Virus record (IMG/VR): IMGVR_UViG_3300030104_001131
Coordinates: 1-25,134 of that record
From: a virus
Strand: one strand, 5' to 3'
DNA: 25,134 nt
A model generated the notes under the pieces. It had not been told where the DNA came from. It did not search any database and was given only the letters and a program-made list of their open reading frames with translations. Shown here piece after piece: positions 7,438 through 22,925 of this stretch (positions are counted from its first letter, which is position 1; every line of letters starts with the position of its first letter). The position numbers and the translations under genes are program-made.

Positions 7438-7788
7438 ATGAGTGCAGGTTATCATCATTTTATCATAGAGCAAGGTGCGACATTTGGTCAGACGCTTACT
7501 CTAAAAGATTCATCTAATGCAGTAATAAACCTTACAGGTTTTACAGGTGCTATGTCACTAAAAGAAAAACCTGATGCATCTGCAACAATCCTATCCCTTA
7601 CAACTGCAAATGGTCGTATGACTATGGGTGGTACTGCAGGAACAATAGTGTTAACAATAAGTTCTACAGATACAGGCAATTTATCGCCTGATGATGGTGT
7701 GTTTGATTTAGAAATAACAAGTGGTGGTGGTGTTGTTACAAGAATCATTGAAGGTACTTATAGTGTTAGGAGAAACATTACAGCATGA
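7438..7788 (+). CDS. Small beta-rich structural protein preceding the fibre genes
   Basis: The 116-aa product starts MSAGYHHFIIEQGATFGQTL and continues with alternating strands: NLTGFTGAMSLKEKP, LTTANGRMTMGG, GTIVLTISSTDTGNL, VFDLEITSGGG, RIIEGTYSVRRNIT. This is the pattern of small phage proteins next to tail fibre or baseplate genes, similar in outline to N-terminal domains of upper baseplate proteins. No catalytic or membrane features are visible. Its ATG has TAGGAAG about eight bases upstream, and its stop overlaps the giant fibre ATG by 4 nt (ATGA), so the two are likely translated together. It may be an adaptor that anchors the fibre to the virion; this is inferred from position. Confidence 0.65.
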   Translation: MSAGYHHFIIEQGATFGQTLTLKDSSNAVINLTGFTGAMSLKEKPDASATILSLTTANGRMTMGGTAGTIVLTISSTDTGNLSPDDGVFDLEITSGGGVVTRIIEGTYSVRRNITA

Positions 7789-10700
7789 GTTCTGTTGATA
7801 GCATTACAATTACAAGTGTAAGCACTGTAAATCAAATAACAATTACCGATACTAGTGGCATAACAGTAACAACTGTTGGCACACAAGGTGTTGCTGGTCC
7901 AAGTGCTATTATGGGAAAAAGTGTTGACCAAAATACTGCTGGTGCAAGTAATAATGGTGCTTTACTTATATATGATAATGGCAATACTCAATGGACAGCA
8001 AACGATACAACCGAAGGCAAACAACTAACACAAAAGTTATTTAATCTACAACTCGGAGAAGGTGGTGCAACAGTAACTACCATACTAGATGAAGATAATA
8101 TGGCAACAGATAGTGCTACTGCTTTATCTACACAACAAAGTATTAAAGCTTATGTAGATGCACAAGTAACTTTACAAGATTTAGATATATCAGATGGCTC
8201 AACAACTATTGCTATTGATTTAGATAGTGAAACTTTAGGATTACTTGGTGGTGTAGGTATCTCATCTACAGCTAGTGGTAACAATGTTACCTTTGCAATA
8301 GACGCAACTGTTACAACCTTATCAGGAACACAAACTTTAACAAATAAAACACTTACTTCCCCTACACTTACATCACCAGTATTAAATACAGCTATATCAG
8401 GAAGTGCTTTTCTTGACGAAGATGATATGTCAAGTAACAGTGCAACTAAGGTAGCATCACAACAATCAATTAAAGCTTATGTTGATACACAACTTACAGC
8501 AGAAGACCTAGATGTTTCAGATGGTTCTAATAGTGGTTCAATAGACTTAGATTCCGAAGTATTAGGTCTGTTAGGTGGTACAGGTCTTACTTCTTCGCTA
8601 AGTGGTAATAACTTTACTTTTGCTATAGATGGAACAGTAGCAACTCTCACTGGTACACAAACATTTACTAATAAGACACTTACATCACCAAAAATAAATG
8701 GTTCTACAGCAATAACTACAACTGGTACAGAAATAAATGTATTAGATGGTGATACTAGTGCAAGTTCTGTAGTTTTAGTAGATGCAGACCAATTCATAGT
8801 TAATGACAATGGAACTATGAAACAATTAGCTGTTACAAGATTAGATACTTACTTTTCAGGCACTACAGCTACATTAACTAACAAAACACTTACAAGTCCA
8901 GTACTTAATGGCACATTATCAGGCACAGCATTTAAAGATGAAGATAATATGTCTAGTAATTCAGCTACAGCAGTTGCTAGTCAGCAATCTATTAAAGCGT
9001 ATGTAGATTCGCAAGTCACAGCACAGGATTTAGATGTATCTGATGGTAGTAACGATATAGCAATAGATTTAGACTCAGAAACACTCACATTAGCTGGTGG
9101 TACTGGTATAGATTCAACTGCAAACACTAATACAGTAACTTTTGCTATAGATAACACAGTAGCAACGCTTTCAGGCAGTCAAACACTAACTAACAAAACA
9201 ATAGATGTTAATAGTAATGCAGTTACTAACATAGAAGTAGATAATCTAAAAGTAGGTGTATTAGATACCGATTTATCAAGTGTAGCAGCTACAGATACAA
9301 CATTAGCATCTGCAAAAGCAATTAAAACCTATGTAGATACAAATATAACTGCACAAGACCTTGATATTAGTGATGGTTCTTCTACGATAGCAATTGACCT
9401 TGATTCAGAGACTTTATCGCTATTAGGTGGCACTGGTGTAACAAGTACAGCTTCAGGTAATGGAGTAACATTTGCAATAGGTCAATCTGTAGGTACAGGA
9501 GATGATGTAGAGTTTAACCAAGTAACAGGTGCATTGGTTGGTAATGCTTCTACAGCTACAGCACTTGCAACAGCTAGAGCCATTGCGTTATCAGGAGATG
9601 TAGTAGGTACTGCAAACTTTGATGGTACAGCAGGTATTTCTATATCTACAACAATTCAAGCAAATAGTATTGTATTAGGTACTGATACAACTGGTTCTTA
9701 TGTTGAAAGCTTAGTAGCTGGAACTGGTGTATCTTTAGCAAATAATAGTGGTGAATCTGCAACACCAACTATTGCAATTGGTCAGTCAGTAGGTACATCA
9801 GACAATGTGCAATTTGGAACAGTAACAGCAGCATTAAGTGGAAATGCATCAACAGCAACAGCTTTAGCAACTGGTCGTACAATAGCTTTATCAGGAGATG
9901 TAACTGCTTCAGGTGTATCGTTTGACGGAACAGGTAACATTACTTTATCTACTACAATAGCAGCAAATAGTGTTGCTCTTGGAACAGACACTACTGGTAA
10001 CTATGTAGCAGGTATAAGTGGTACAACGAACGAAATAGAAGTTTCAGGTTCAGGAAGTGAAGGTTCTACTGTAACTATAGGATTACCTGACAATGTAACT
10101 ATATCAGGTAACTTAACTGTTAATGGAACAACAACAACTACAGATACTAACGAACTTCATGTTACAGACCCATTAATTAAATTAGCTAAAGACAATACAG
10201 CTAATTCTTTAGATATTGGTTTTTATGGTCAATACAGAGCATCAGGTTCAAATAATCAGTTTTCAGGTTTATTTAGAGACCAAAACGACAGTGGTAAATA
10301 TAAACTCTTTGAATTACTAGAAGCAGAACCTACAACTACTGTTAATACAAGTGGAACAGGTTTTCAGATAGCTACACTTGTTGCGAACTTAGAAGGTAAT
10401 GTAACAGGTAACTTAACAGGTGCTATACAAACAGCAGCACAAACAAATATTACAAGTTTAGGCACATTGACTGCTTTACAAGTAGATAACATTAATATTA
10501 ATGGCAACACAATATCATCTACAGCAGGTACAGATTTAAACATTACACCATTAGCAGGACAACAAATAGTATTAGATGGTGCAATAGTTATAGATGCAGG
10601 AGTAGTTACTGGTGCAACTTCTATAACTTCTACAGCATTTGTAGGAAATGTAACTGGTAATGTTACAGGTACATCTGCAACAGTCACAGGTGCTGCTCAA

Positions 10701-13700
10701 ACTAATATAACTTCTTTAGGAACTTTAACAGCATTACAAGTTGATAATATCAACATCAATGGTAATACAATATCTAGCTCTGCAGGAACAGACCTCAATA
10801 TAACTCCTCTTAGTGGTCAACAAATTGTTTTAGATGGAACTATTATCATTGATGCTGGTGTTGTTACAGGTGCTACCTCAATCACATCTACTGCTTTTGT
10901 TGGTGATATAACAGGTGATGTAACAGGTAATGCAGATACATCTACAACATTAGCAAATAGCAGAAATTTCTCTATAACAGGAGATATTACAGCTAGTGCT
11001 ATAGCATTTGATGGTTCAGGTAATGTGGCTTTAAGTGCAAGTATTGACGACAATGTTGTGGGTGCTGCTCAACTCAACATATCAGGCAACGGAACTGCAG
11101 GACAAGCAGTCTTATCTGATGGAGATGGTTCATTTTCGTATGGTTCTAGTGGTAAAACTACAGAAGAAATACAAGATATTGTTGGGGCAATGGTTTCCAG
11201 TAATACCGAAACTGGTATCACTGTAACTTATGAAGATGGAGATGGAACATTAGATTTCGTTATAAACCCTGCACAAACTACTATAACAAGCTTACTTGCT
11301 ACTGATATTAAGATTGGAGAAGATGACCAAACTAAAATAGACTTTGGAACTGCAGATGAAATACATTTCTTTGCAGGTAATGAAAGTCAAATTAAACTTA
11401 CTAATGGTGCTTTAGTTCCTTCTACAGATAATGATATAGATTTAGGAACATCATCAGCAGAATTTAAAAATGCATTCTTTGATGGCACTGTTACTAGTGA
11501 TGCATTTAGTGGCCCTTTAACTGGTGATGTTACAGGTAACGCTAGTACAGCTACAGCTTTAGAAACAGCTAGAACAATTGGTGGAACAAGTTTTGATGGT
11601 ACAGGTAATATTGCAGTAGCACTTTCTGCTACAGCTACAGCACTTGCTAATGCTCGTACTATTGGTGGTGTTTCTTTTGATGGAACAGCTAATATTAACC
11701 TTGCAGGTGTAAATACAACAGGAAATCAAGATACAACAGGAAATGCTGCAACAGCAACTATATTAGCTACAGCAAGAACAATCGGTGGTACTTCCTTTGA
11801 TGGAAGTGCAAATATAGCTGTTGCTTTAGCAAGTACTGCTACTACATTAGCAAACGCAAGAACTATTAATGGTGTTAGCTTTGATGGTAGTGCAAACATA
11901 ACAACTCTTACAGCAGGAACAGGTGTTTCTGTTTCAGGAACAGCAGTATCTATAGGACAAGCTGTAGCGACTTCTGATAGTCCTACTTTTGCAAACATGA
12001 CACTAAGTGGTACTGATTCAATTAAAGTACCAGCAGGAACAACAGGACAAAGGAATGGTTCACCTGCAAATGGTATGTTTAGGTATAACTCAACTAATGA
12101 AGAATTTGAAGGTTATCAAAATGGTGCATGGGGTGCGATAGCAGGTGGTGGTGCAAGTGCTATGGAAACCAACACTTTTACAGGAGATGGTAGTACAACA
12201 GCATTTACAATTAGTTCAAATGTAAGTAGCGAAGATGATTTAATTATATTTATAGATGGTGTGTATCAAAACAAAGCAGATTTTGTTGCTAGTGGTACAA
12301 CAGTTACTTTTGATACTGCACCTGTTAATAGTAGAAAAGTAGTAATCAACCACATAAAAGCAAACATAGCAGGTTCTTCTGTAACACAAAATGCCTTTAG
12401 TGGAGATGGTTCAACAGTTGCATTTACATTATCTATAAGTCCAACAAACGAAAACAATACACAGATTTACATTGATGGTGTTTATCAACACAAATCTACT
12501 TACACAGTAAGTGGAACAACTCTTACCTTTGATACTGCACCAGTCAATAGCACAGCTATAGATGTAATCATGTTTAGTCAAACTGCACTTAACACACCAG
12601 CTTCAGATACAGTCACCACCAGTACGATTGCTGATGCTAATGTTACAAGTGCAAAACTAGCAAGTAATGCAGTAACAACAGTAAAAATTGCAGACGATGC
12701 AGTTACTTCTGCAAAACTAGATACAAACATAGCTGTTGCAGGAACACTAGCTTCTACAGGCGTACTTACAGCAAATGCAGGAGTTGTAGTAGATAACATA
12801 ACTATTGATGGTCAAGAAATAGATGTAAGTTCAGGCAACTTAACATTAGATATAGCTGGAGAACTTAATATAGATGTAGATGGTGGTGCAATTAATTATA
12901 AAGATGGTGGTACACATTTTGGTTCTGTAGAGAAAGATGGAAACAATTTTAGATTTGAAAGTAAAATTTCAGATGGAGATATAGTATTCAGAGGTAGTGA
13001 TGCAGGGTCAGGGATAAATGCTCTCACACTTGATATGTCTAATGCAGGTGCAGCTACTTTTAATGCAGGTGCAACTTTTGGTGGAGACATAACACTACCA
13101 TCTTCAGGTCAAATAAATGCTTCAGGTGCTTTGTATTTAGATAGTGATATTACACACTTTAGGCTTAATAATGAAACTGAATTGATGCGTATTCAATCTT
13201 CAGGTGTTGGAATAGGAACTACAAGTCCTACAACACCACTTCATGTTGAATCTTCTACTAGCAACCAAAATACTACACTAATAAAAAATACAGCAGGTAC
13301 AGGTGTAAATTATGGTTTGGAAATACAAGCAGGAACAAATGCAACAGACCACGCATTACAAGTTTTAGATTCTGGTGGTACATCAAGGCTTAGAGTTACA
13401 GGTGAAGGTAAAGTTGGAATTGGAAATACAGCACCTCTAGGTAAGCTAACAATTTCTAATGCAGCAGGTCAAAATGCACCAACATCTATAACAGCAGCAA
13501 ATACTTACTTACAACTTGGTAGTGATGATTTTGGACCTGATGGTAGTACTGGTCATTTTATGATTGGTTTTGGTTATACTGATGCTACAAACACAAACTC
13601 TCCAGCTTATATAGGTTTTAAAGAAACAAGCACAGCAGGAGATACAAAAGGCGAACTTATTTTTCTTACAAGAGATGTTGTTACTGATACAGCACCAACC

Positions 13701-14531
13701 GAAAGATTAAGAATTACAGATGGTGGAGATGTAAGTATAGGTTCAGACCATTCTGGATTTAGTGGTTACAGAGTTTTAAACTTAAGAGGTGGGTCAACAG
13801 GTGGTATATATAATCTTGAAAATAGTAGTGGCACACGAACTGCATCTTTACTCAATACAGGAAGTGACCTTAGATTACAAACATTTGTAAGTGGTGGTAA
13901 CATTCAGTTTGAACCTGAAGGCACAGAAGCTATGCGTATTCATAGTGGTGGAACAGTATCAATAAATTCAACATCAACAAAAAATGCAGATATGGGTTCT
14001 ACTCCAAAATTATTTATAGAAAATGGTAGTACATCAAGCACATCAAATCTTGGTTTATATAATTCATCAACTGCAAATATTGAATTGATGGAGTTTATGC
14101 ACGAAAGAGCAGGTGGTGTAGATACTGCTTTTATGGCTATATTTAGAGAAAATGCAGGAAATGCTGTTGGAAGTATCTCAATTAATGGTTCAGCAACTAC
14201 TTATAATACTTCATCAGATTATAGGCTTAAAACAAATATAAGACCTATTGAAAATGGAATTGACAGAGTTAATAAATTAAAACCTGTTAAATTTGATTGG
14301 ATAGATAATAGTGAATTAGTTAGTGAGGGATTTATAGCACATGAAGTAGATGAAATATTTGCTGATGCAGTTTCAGGTGTTAAAGATAAAGTAGATGAAA
14401 AAGGTAAAATAGTTCCTCAAAGTTTAGACTATGGTCGTATAACACCATTGCTGGTCAAAGCTATACAAGAACAACAAGAACAAATTGAAACACTAAAAGC
14501 AGAAGTAAAGGAGTTAAAAGACAATGGCTAA
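7785..14531 (+). CDS. Giant repeat-built tail/head fibre with C-terminal S74 chaperone domain
   Basis: The 2248-aa product is dominated by Thr, Ser, Gly, Asn, Asp and Val, and I saw no Cys. Residues 1-60 end in a collagen-like VGTQGVAGPS stretch, a common phage fibre anchor. Four related blocks begin at residues 101, 210, 384 and 495 (DEDNM...SIKAYVD...LTNKTL), a 100-aa duplication follows from 568, and an 86-aa duplication from 884. Then come several RTIGGxSFDGxxNI units (about 1260-1375), two GDGST...IDGVYQ...FDTAPVNS beta domains (1465 and 1538) and VGIGTTSP-type motifs. The C-terminus is a Peptidase_S74 domain: Ser2144 and Lys2149 in SDYRLK are the expected self-cleavage pair, releasing about 105 residues after the trimer folds, and it ends in a coiled coil. 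The product is probably a trimeric receptor-binding fibre. AGGAG precedes the ATG. Confidence 0.93.
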   Translation: MSSVDSITITSVSTVNQITITDTSGITVTTVGTQGVAGPSAIMGKSVDQNTAGASNNGALLIYDNGNTQWTANDTTEGKQLTQKLFNLQLGEGGATVTTILDEDNMATDSATALSTQQSIKAYVDAQVTLQDLDISDGSTTIAIDLDSETLGLLGGVGISSTASGNNVTFAIDATVTTLSGTQTLTNKTLTSPTLTSPVLNTAISGSAFLDEDDMSSNSATKVASQQSIKAYVDTQLTAEDLDVSDGSNSGSIDLDSEVLGLLGGTGLTSSLSGNNFTFAIDGTVATLTGTQTFTNKTLTSPKINGSTAITTTGTEINVLDGDTSASSVVLVDADQFIVNDNGTMKQLAVTRLDTYFSGTTATLTNKTLTSPVLNGTLSGTAFKDEDNMSSNSATAVASQQSIKAYVDSQVTAQDLDVSDGSNDIAIDLDSETLTLAGGTGIDSTANTNTVTFAIDNTVATLSGSQTLTNKTIDVNSNAVTNIEVDNLKVGVLDTDLSSVAATDTTLASAKAIKTYVDTNITAQDLDISDGSSTIAIDLDSETLSLLGGTGVTSTASGNGVTFAIGQSVGTGDDVEFNQVTGALVGNASTATALATARAIALSGDVVGTANFDGTAGISISTTIQANSIVLGTDTTGSYVESLVAGTGVSLANNSGESATPTIAIGQSVGTSDNVQFGTVTAALSGNASTATALATGRTIALSGDVTASGVSFDGTGNITLSTTIAANSVALGTDTTGNYVAGISGTTNEIEVSGSGSEGSTVTIGLPDNVTISGNLTVNGTTTTTDTNELHVTDPLIKLAKDNTANSLDIGFYGQYRASGSNNQFSGLFRDQNDSGKYKLFELLEAEPTTTVNTSGTGFQIATLVANLEGNVTGNLTGAIQTAAQTNITSLGTLTALQVDNININGNTISSTAGTDLNITPLAGQQIVLDGAIVIDAGVVTGATSITSTAFVGNVTGNVTGTSATVTGAAQTNITSLGTLTALQVDNININGNTISSSAGTDLNITPLSGQQIVLDGTIIIDAGVVTGATSITSTAFVGDITGDVTGNADTSTTLANSRNFSITGDITASAIAFDGSGNVALSASIDDNVVGAAQLNISGNGTAGQAVLSDGDGSFSYGSSGKTTEEIQDIVGAMVSSNTETGITVTYEDGDGTLDFVINPAQTTITSLLATDIKIGEDDQTKIDFGTADEIHFFAGNESQIKLTNGALVPSTDNDIDLGTSSAEFKNAFFDGTVTSDAFSGPLTGDVTGNASTATALETARTIGGTSFDGTGNIAVALSATATALANARTIGGVSFDGTANINLAGVNTTGNQDTTGNAATATILATARTIGGTSFDGSANIAVALASTATTLANARTINGVSFDGSANITTLTAGTGVSVSGTAVSIGQAVATSDSPTFANMTLSGTDSIKVPAGTTGQRNGSPANGMFRYNSTNEEFEGYQNGAWGAIAGGGASAMETNTFTGDGSTTAFTISSNVSSEDDLIIFIDGVYQNKADFVASGTTVTFDTAPVNSRKVVINHIKANIAGSSVTQNAFSGDGSTVAFTLSISPTNENNTQIYIDGVYQHKSTYTVSGTTLTFDTAPVNSTAIDVIMFSQTALNTPASDTVTTSTIADANVTSAKLASNAVTTVKIADDAVTSAKLDTNIAVAGTLASTGVLTANAGVVVDNITIDGQEIDVSSGNLTLDIAGELNIDVDGGAINYKDGGTHFGSVEKDGNNFRFESKISDGDIVFRGSDAGSGINALTLDMSNAGAATFNAGATFGGDITLPSSGQINASGALYLDSDITHFRLNNETELMRIQSSGVGIGTTSPTTPLHVESSTSNQNTTLIKNTAGTGVNYGLEIQAGTNATDHALQVLDSGGTSRLRVTGEGKVGIGNTAPLGKLTISNAAGQNAPTSITAANTYLQLGSDDFGPDGSTGHFMIGFGYTDATNTNSPAYIGFKETSTAGDTKGELIFLTRDVVTDTAPTERLRITDGGDVSIGSDHSGFSGYRVLNLRGGSTGGIYNLENSSGTRTASLLNTGSDLRLQTFVSGGNIQFEPEGTEAMRIHSGGTVSINSTSTKNADMGSTPKLFIENGSTSSTSNLGLYNSSTANIELMEFMHERAGGVDTAFMAIFRENAGNAVGSISINGSATTYNTSSDYRLKTNIRPIENGIDRVNKLKPVKFDWIDNSELVSEGFIAHEVDEIFADAVSGVKDKVDEKGKIVPQSLDYGRITPLLVKAIQEQQEQIETLKAEVKELKDNG
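8085..9485 (+). repeat. Four in-frame diverged repeats of the DEDNM-SIKAYVD-LTNKTL block
   Basis: Copies begin at 8085, 8412, 8934 and 9267. Each carries, in order, DEDxMxxxSAT (altered in copy 4), QQSIKAYVD (AKAIKTYVD in copy 4), a DLDxSDGS turn, IDLDSExL, GGTG and VTFAI; the first three also carry GTQTLTNKT-like endings. Copy 2 has an internal insertion and is about 174 codons, while copies 1 and 3 are 109 and 111. They are protein repeats of the fibre shaft, diverged at DNA level. Confidence 0.8.
9486..10022 (+). repeat. Duplicated 100-residue fibre block
   Basis: Two in-frame copies start at 9486 and 9786, exactly 300 bases apart. Both run SVGTxDxVxF, GNASTATALAT, IALSGDV, a FDGTxxI turn, STTIxANS and LGTDTTGxYV. 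The second copy is shorter at its end. Confidence 0.75.
10434..10935 (+). repeat. Tandem 86-residue fibre repeat, near-identical in protein but diverged in DNA
   Basis: Copy A starts at 10434 and copy B at 10692, a period of 258 bases. Over the first 79 residues only 7 differ. In a 28-codon stretch with identical amino acids (10437-10520 against 10695-10778), 19 codons differ synonymously, including serine AGT/TCT and TCT/AGC switches. A related single copy occurs in the third fibre gene near 17990. Confidence 0.85.
12177..12572 (+). repeat. Two GDGST/IDGVYQ beta-domain repeats in the giant fibre
   Basis: Copies start at 12177 and 12396. Each reads FxGDGSTxAFT, then IxIDGVYQxK, then SGTTxTFDTAPVNS. 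This is a small beta-sandwich-like unit that I recognise from other marine phage fibres. It lies between the shaft repeats and the C-terminal region, so it may be a projecting domain. Confidence 0.7.
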
Positions 14532-21715: not shown

Positions 21716-22159
21716 ATGGCAGCACAAAAAGGTAAAGATGTCTTAATGAAGATTAACACTAGTGGTTCTACTTATGTAACTATTGGTGGTCTTAGGTCTA
21801 CATCAATAACTCTTAATGATGAAGCAGTTGATATAACTAATAAAGATAGTCTTGGCACTAGAACTTTATTAGCTGGTGCAGGGGTAAATAGTATTTCAGT
21901 TAGTGGGTCAGGAGTTTTTACTGATTCAACAGCAGAAGCACTTGTAAGAACTACATACCAAGCACAGCAACCTACATCTGATGGTTCATCTGCACAAACA
22001 CCTGCATTTAAAAACTTTCAATTCTTGATTCCTGATTTAGGAACTTATACAGGTTCTTTTATGATAGCAAGTATGGAGTTTGCAGGAGAGTATAATGGTG
22101 AAGCGACTTATTCATTCACATTTGAATCTGCAGGTTACATAACATTCGCAGCAGTGTAA
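21716..22159 (+). CDS. Major tail tube protein
   Basis: The 147-aa protein is of the TP901-1/Phage_tail_2 type that polymerises into the tail tube. It shows MAAQKGKDVLMKINTSGS, IGGLRSTSITLNDEAVDITN, SISVSGSGVFTDS and the closing FAGEYNGEATYSFTFESAG. A strong AGGAG (TAGGAGAAAAAT before the ATG) fits high expression. It is preceded by the tail terminator and followed within 1 nt by a small unknown gene, then chaperones and tape measure, the canonical order. Confidence 0.93.
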   Translation: MAAQKGKDVLMKINTSGSTYVTIGGLRSTSITLNDEAVDITNKDSLGTRTLLAGAGVNSISVSGSGVFTDSTAEALVRTTYQAQQPTSDGSSAQTPAFKNFQFLIPDLGTYTGSFMIASMEFAGEYNGEATYSFTFESAGYITFAAV

Positions 22160-22160
22160 T

Positions 22161-22394
22161 ATGAAGCAAGTTAAGGTTAAACATAACAAAAGTCTTGTAG
22201 ATGGAATGTTATATAAAGGTGAACTTGTTTTACCTGCTAATGTAAAAGTTGGCGAGACTGTAAACATTGATGGGAAAGAAACCAAAGTCTTATCTACAAA
22301 TGTAGATTACAGAGACAATATACAAACAATTCAGGTTGCAAACGCAACTTTAGATAAAGGAGAAAAGTCAGATGGCGAATCCACTGAAGGGTGA
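22161..22394 (+). CDS. Small conserved-position protein between tail tube and chaperone genes, unknown
   Basis: The 77-aa product has a basic N-terminus ([20 protein letters not shown]) and short beta strands ([30 protein letters not shown]), ending in an acidic Ser/Glu tail. The ATG is 2 nt after the tail-tube stop and has no strong ribosome site, suggesting coupling. Its 3' end overlaps the chaperone gene by 23 nt. No family is recognised; a tail-assembly role is inferred from position. Confidence 0.65.
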
Positions 22395-22722
22395 AATAAC
22401 TTTAGATTTAGCTGGTAAGGAATACAAAGCTAGACTCACAATGAATGCAATCATGCAAGTTGAAGATGCGTGTGGTTGTGGAATTATAAAATTAGCTACA
22501 AAAATGAGTGAAGCTGACATAAGAATGTCAGAAATTATCTCAGTGCTATTACCTGCATTAAGAGGTGGTGGTAACGATTTGCAACACAATGATGTTGTTA
22601 AGCTTGTAGAAAAAGCAGGTATTGTCAAAGCAACTTCTGCTGTTGCTAATTTACTTGCAAAAACTCTAACTGATGATTCAGAGGAAACAACAGACGAGGG
22701 AAAGTTAGAAAAGGTGGGTTAG
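22372..22722 (+). CDS. Tail assembly chaperone, unshifted frame (gpG-like, gene-transfer-agent type)
   Basis: The 116-aa zero-frame product starts at ATG with AAAGGAG eight bases upstream. It shows [22 protein letters not shown] and [14 protein letters not shown], then [20 protein letters not shown], the pattern of the GTA TIM-barrel-like/Phage_TAC_11 tail chaperones of alphaproteobacterial phages. Such proteins coat the tape measure before tube assembly. Near its end the gene contains G GGA AAG (22698-22704), exactly the lambda G/GT slip heptamer in frame, so most ribosomes should stop at 22720-22722 and a minority shift -1 into the longer product. Confidence 0.88.
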
Positions 22723-22925
22723 TAAGTGATTCACTTCCCATCAAACGTTATTTTTCTATATGTGTGGGCATGATGCACATGACACCTAATACTTTTTGGA
22801 AATCATCACCACAAGAAATATATATGGCTATAGATGGTTTTATTGAATTTAATAATGGTGCAGAAAAAGAAGAACCTATGTCTAAAGATAGGTTAAACGA
22901 AATGATGGAGTTATATCCTGACTAA
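22372..22925 (+). CDS. Tail assembly chaperone, -1 frameshift fusion (gpGT-like)
   Basis: Slipping back one base at 22698-22704 joins Lys111 of the first frame to a second frame that is open from 22677 to the TAA at 22923-22925. It adds 73 residues ([17 protein letters not shown] at its start, then [15 protein letters not shown]) for a 184-aa fusion. The second part looks like real coding sequence, resembling the small second chaperone (TAC_6/rcc01693-like, with the FWxxxPxEI pattern). Its first own ATG, at 22770, lacks a good ribosome site and would drop the conserved-looking [12 protein letters not shown] part, which favours frameshifting. The tape measure ATG overlaps its stop (TAATG). In lambda the two products occur at a fixed ratio and are lost from the virion; the same is inferred here. 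Confidence 0.82.
22698..22742 (+). promoter_or_regulatory. Programmed -1 ribosomal frameshift signal
   Basis: The heptamer GGGAAAG at 22698-22704 is in the G GGA AAG register of the zero frame. After an 8-nt spacer (22705-22712) a stem-loop is possible. GGTGGG (22713-22718) pairs with CCCATC (22737-22742), with one G-U pair, and AAGTG (22724-22728) pairs with CACTT (22732-22736) around an ATT loop, with a 5-nt bulge TTAGT on the 5' side only. A GAGG at 22681-22684, 13 nt upstream, could act as a stimulatory Shine-Dalgarno-like element. The zero-frame stop lies inside the stem. Confidence 0.8.

Follow-up and report, generated by a model that had tools for sequence, protein, structure and literature searches.

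A predicted lambda-type -1 frameshift joining TAC_11 and TAC_6 tail assembly chaperones in a phage group, and its possible extension to gene transfer agents

We analysed a window of 25,134 nucleotides, bases 1-25134 of a virus record of 48,463 bases, in which a tail assembly chaperone gene very probably gives both a short product and a -1 frameshifted one through slippage at the heptamer G_GGA_AAG, as judged from its sequence and those of its relatives (Table 1). Most ribosomes would read positions 22372-22722, stop and release a 116-residue chaperone, while a minority would slip back by one base at the heptamer, the tRNAs on GGA AAG re-pairing on GGG AAA, and would continue in the -1 frame to 22925 to give a 184-residue protein with an added TAC_6 domain. 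By analogy with lambda gpG and gpGT, the part common to both products may be what binds to the tape measure protein, and the major tail protein may be recruited by the extension; we infer these chaperone roles, as well as the slipping and its frequency. The heptamer of lambda G/GT is also G_GGA_AAG, in the same register as that of the window. This heptamer shows a strong tendency to shift in E. coli and is a known g-t shift site (PMC5009743).

The chaperone pair follows the major tail protein gene and precedes the tape measure gene, as in lambda-type G/GT, with one small gene (22161-22394) separating it from the former, and the tape measure ATG begins on the final A of the TAA that closes the -1 frame (22925). 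The match of the zero-frame product to PF11836 scored 64.1 bits (curated cut-off of 27.8), and in the -1 frame Phage_TAC_6 (PF09550) scored 31.7 bits (E 2.1e-7; cut-off of 23.4) and NCBIfam TIGR02216 (rcc01693) 27.1 bits (E 3.7e-6), which is under the NCBI cut-off of 56.1. Zero-frame codons around the slip site are GAC GAG GGA AAG TTA GAA AAG GTG GGT TAG, and this codon phase bears out the slippery register that a first-pass annotation, made from the sequence alone, had assigned to the heptamer. The same annotation had described the -1 frame as open across the zero-frame stop and had given the fusion 184 residues; we found the frame bounded by a TGA just before 22677 and by the TAA at 22923-22925, and the predicted length agrees (111 + 73 residues). 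Its expectation that a plain gene caller would leave about 200 bases unannotated needs correcting, as the earliest -1 frame start codon (GTG at 22764, with the next, ATG, at 22770) gives a 53-aa ORF, a fragment that could be annotated. Elsewhere in the window, a 2248-codon open frame occupies 7785-14531 between the capsid and head-tail connector genes, an odd place for a frame of such size.

Table 1 Features of the chaperone locus in window coordinates, with the evidence for each
Feature	Position	Strand	Evidence
Major tail protein gene, upstream	21716-22159	+	PF06199 E 7.8e-32
Tail assembly chaperone 1 (zero frame, lambda gpG analogue, Phage_TAC_11 / GTA-gp10 type), 116 aa	22372-22722	+	PF11836 E 1.3e-17, residues 7-99; PHROG 2115 'tail protein'
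Shine-Dalgarno-like AGAGGAA, candidate frameshift stimulator as in dnaX	22680-22686	+	anti-Shine-Dalgarno pairing in relatives
Slippery heptamer G_GGA_AAG	22698-22704	+	sequence; kept in relatives
-1 frame extension (lambda T analogue, Phage_TAC_6 / rcc01693 family), 73 codons after the slip plus TAA	22704-22925	+	PF09550; TIGR02216
Possible stem-loop (22713-22718 with 22737-22742, 22724-22728 with 22732-22736)	22713-22742	+	minimum-free-energy fold, weak
Zero-frame stop TAG, end of short product	22720-22722	+	sequence
Tape measure protein gene, downstream, 610 aa	22925-24757	+	PHROG 1716 E 1.1e-40

GGGAAAG occurs three times in the window versus 1.8 expected, so that its presence alone is no evidence. 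When the overlap codons were resampled synonymously, keeping the encoded overlap residues and using the phage's own codon usage (GGA is 24% of Gly and AAG 19% of Lys), any X_XXY_YYZ arose in 2.7% of cases and GGGAAAG in 0.65%. The main support for the predicted slip site is its conservation in relatives, and not its occurrence. Viral contigs scanned with each chaperone half, together with two phage records, provided 114 distinct junctions (101 + 13), in every one of which the TAC_6 part lies in the -1 frame of TAC_11. In all but one of them, the first gene carries a plausible slip heptamer close to its end and in slippery register: GGGAAAG, AAAAAAG or AAAAAAA in 99 of the 101, and a slip heptamer in each of the 13 further ones. 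Within the window's own group (group A), aligned homologues all carry the heptamer in the same register, as GGGAAAG or in a few cases AAAAAAG, and among 55 relatives of the same layout the seven heptamer columns are 100% identical in all 55 while the flanking columns vary. The distance from heptamer to zero-frame stop varies (7, 10, 16, 19, 22 or 28 nt), and the heptamer has thus persisted while its position with respect to the stop changed. These relatives already refute the reading in which one long chaperone gene was broken in two by decay or by an error of sequencing or assembly: such a reading would fit a record that consists of one metagenome contig, but the identical split recurs in the 114 distinct junctions from many samples with a second part under purifying selection, and we put its probability at practically nil. 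Distant phages in the databases were few (4 and 3 records). One distant phage relative, MW202613.1 (L163:2639-3201), expresses the two chaperones from separate genes that overlap at ATGA and lacks a plausible slip site.

Substitution patterns in the relatives show protein-level selection on the -1 frame: past the zero-frame stop its dN/dS is 0.17-0.22, and that of the two other frames about 1 or higher. In 36 group A sequences, the first ATG, GTG or TTG comes 44 nt or more after the stop; over the stretch ahead of that codon, dN/dS was 0.15 in the -1 frame but exceeded 2 in both others. Stops in this stretch were present in 0 of 55 sequences in the -1 frame versus 17 and 52 of 55 in the other two. 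Across group A, no stop in the -1 frame precedes the conserved domain. The -1 frame is therefore selected as protein before any usual start codon, which indicates that ribosomes read there in the -1 frame without such a start and makes independent initiation a poor explanation. A separate small protein, initiated independently at GTG 22764 or ATG 22770 or made by ribosomes that restart past the TAG, would fit the 53-aa ORF as well as the NTGA starts that overlap the stop in a sister group and in many alphaproteobacterial relatives, but this selection covers the frame ahead of any usual start codon, conserved residues are encoded upstream of GTG 22764, and no Shine-Dalgarno-like sequence lies at a usable distance ahead of that GTG; we regard such a protein as improbable. 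Among the 73 GGGAAAG members of group A, 51 reach their first start codon only well within the domain. Another 20 of the 73 have a TTG, GTG or ATG 0-25 nt past the stop, at no fixed place, so the no-start argument rests on the majority without one, and rare non-standard starts (ATC, ATA) upstream of the domain are, strictly speaking, conceivable. Frameshifting at the sole heptamer of the overlap is the simplest account, and the frameshift that the first-pass annotation had proposed gains support from both the relatives and the selection on the -1 frame; none of the refuting observations that it had named turned up in group A.

The elements that might stimulate such a frameshift differ in their evidence. 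The first-pass annotation had drawn a two-part stem downstream of the heptamer, and folding of 22690-22760 indeed yields this stem as the minimum-free-energy structure (-15.2 kcal/mol), but comparison with shuffled sequence shows it to be weak (z -1.5; 19 of 200 shuffles fold as well) and the exact stem is not a feature of the family. RNAalifold detected no common stem among 43 relatives, and when the annotated pairs were followed through relatives 67.7% of cells were paired, with 18 double changes versus 9.7 in shuffles and several pairs mostly broken. On average, the segment that begins about 10 nt from the first base of the heptamer is slightly more stably folded than its shuffles (mean z -1.3). 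Relatives may use differing stems, or none, and a downstream structure is not established. A shifted stem, pairing alignment columns 16-21 with 36-41, was no better than shuffles. About 8 nt past the heptamer, a G-rich AGGxGG (22712-22718 in the window) is kept in relatives without a fixed stem partner; it may form one arm of a stem whose other arm varies.

An upstream Shine-Dalgarno-like element, which the first-pass annotation did not contain, is better supported than the stem. In group A a GAGG or GGAG precedes the heptamer by about 10-14 nt; in the sister group B it is a few nucleotides closer. Over 33 diverse relatives, anti-Shine-Dalgarno pairing averaged -6.1 kcal/mol at this place versus -2.5 and -2.1 kcal/mol in comparable windows of the same genes. 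In the window, the element includes the rare Glu codon GAG (11% of Glu codons in this phage). This upstream GAGG may stimulate the predicted frameshift.

Group B, whose viral loci are part of L042-L081, combines an invariant A9 run (A_AAA_AAA in slippery register) with a GTGA or ATGA stop-start overlap (for example L074 near 2690-2720), and it has the Shine-Dalgarno-like element as well. Members of this group may use transcriptional slippage, ribosomal slippage, restart, and/or slippage together with restart. The element lies about 16-22 nt ahead of the overlapping start, a distance too great for the ordinary ribosome site of that start, which would speak for a part in frameshifting in group B as well. 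A run of nine A is a length at which bacterial RNA polymerase slips (PMC5009743), and the -1 frame could accordingly be reached by transcriptional slippage instead of ribosomal frameshifting; against this, the window has GGGAAAG alone with no long run, and the heptamer keeps its translational register in all members, so that we consider transcriptional slippage very improbable as the source of the -1 frame.

A scan of genome contigs returned one weak relative, which served as a handle into alphaproteobacterial genomes. In alphaproteobacterial chromosomes we found 80 distinct junctions of the same gene pair with TAC_6 in the -1 frame. Among those lacking a start codon ahead of the TAC_6 domain, 37 of 45 have an X_XXY_YYZ heptamer in slippery register versus 2 and 1 in the other registers, and where a start codon is present only 12 of 35 do so (Fisher p 2e-5, uncorrected for species kinship). 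Removal of junctions more than 70% alike left 34 of 42 versus 12 of 35, with kinship otherwise likewise uncorrected. Of the junctions with a start codon, 30 of 35 have an NTGA start-stop overlap. The heptamers are mainly C_CCU_UUN, A_AAC_CCU and G_GGA_AAN; U_UUC_CCU counts for less because it is partly fixed by a conserved Phe-Pro-Trp motif.

One of these pairs belongs to a cluster of gene transfer agent (GTA) type. Cluster L345, whose junction (in L276) carries C_CCT_TTC, has an RcGTA-type tape measure (E 1.5e-53, under the NCBI cut-off), and its distal tail (Rcc01695 family) and hub (GTA-type) proteins score above cut-off. A slip heptamer with a second chaperone lacking a start codon is seen also in L183, L321, L275 and others. 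A -1 frameshift in gene transfer agents is thus a prediction from such pairs. We think it likely that, among RcGTA-type g10 and g10.5/rcc01693 pairs and related prophages, many Alphaproteobacteria frameshift by -1 at C_CCU_UUC, A_AAC_CCU or G_GGA_AAG and others have swapped to NTGA coupling. If true, a domesticated phage tail would have kept a programmed frameshift that is interchangeable with restart. The RcGTA genes g10 and g10.5 are described as tail chaperones 1 and 2 with frameshifting unmentioned (PMC11409702), gp10 and frameshifting are both absent from the paper on the RcGTA structure, and among the open-licence papers searched we found no report of frameshifting in gene transfer agents. 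The window locus itself does not class as a gene transfer agent: it has a phage tape measure of 610 aa in a virus record of 48,463 bases, not a short one of RcGTA type within a cluster on a chromosome.

These findings would amend the annotation of a large marine phage group, in which the second tail chaperone, having no usable start, is overlooked or cut short by plain gene callers. For gene transfer agents they predict that the annotated start of the second chaperone is wrong in the species that frameshift, and this extension is the part most worth following. In E. coli dnaX, the spacing from Shine-Dalgarno sequence to heptamer is similar to that in the window's group. The dnaX site also resembles the window in having a Shine-Dalgarno-like element upstream of an X_XXA_AAG heptamer (dnaX stimulator: PMC5009743), whereas no conserved downstream stem was found in the window's group and the purpose here would be an added domain, not truncation. 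RcGTA g10 (pfam11836) and g10.5 (rcc01693) belong to the same families in the same order ahead of the tape measure gene, although the window is from a phage with a 610-aa tape measure and no frameshift is described for the GTA pair (PMC11409702). Lambda G/GT likewise has the major tail protein gene on one side and the tape measure gene on the other, and gives a short and a -1 extended product (PMC5009743), but the window's proteins match TAC_11 and TAC_6, and a Shine-Dalgarno-like element is conserved upstream in its relatives. The type of frameshift is hence already known from lambda G/GT, and the TAC_11/TAC_6 pair is an addition to it, one in which an upstream Shine-Dalgarno-like element is conserved where a firm downstream stem is not.
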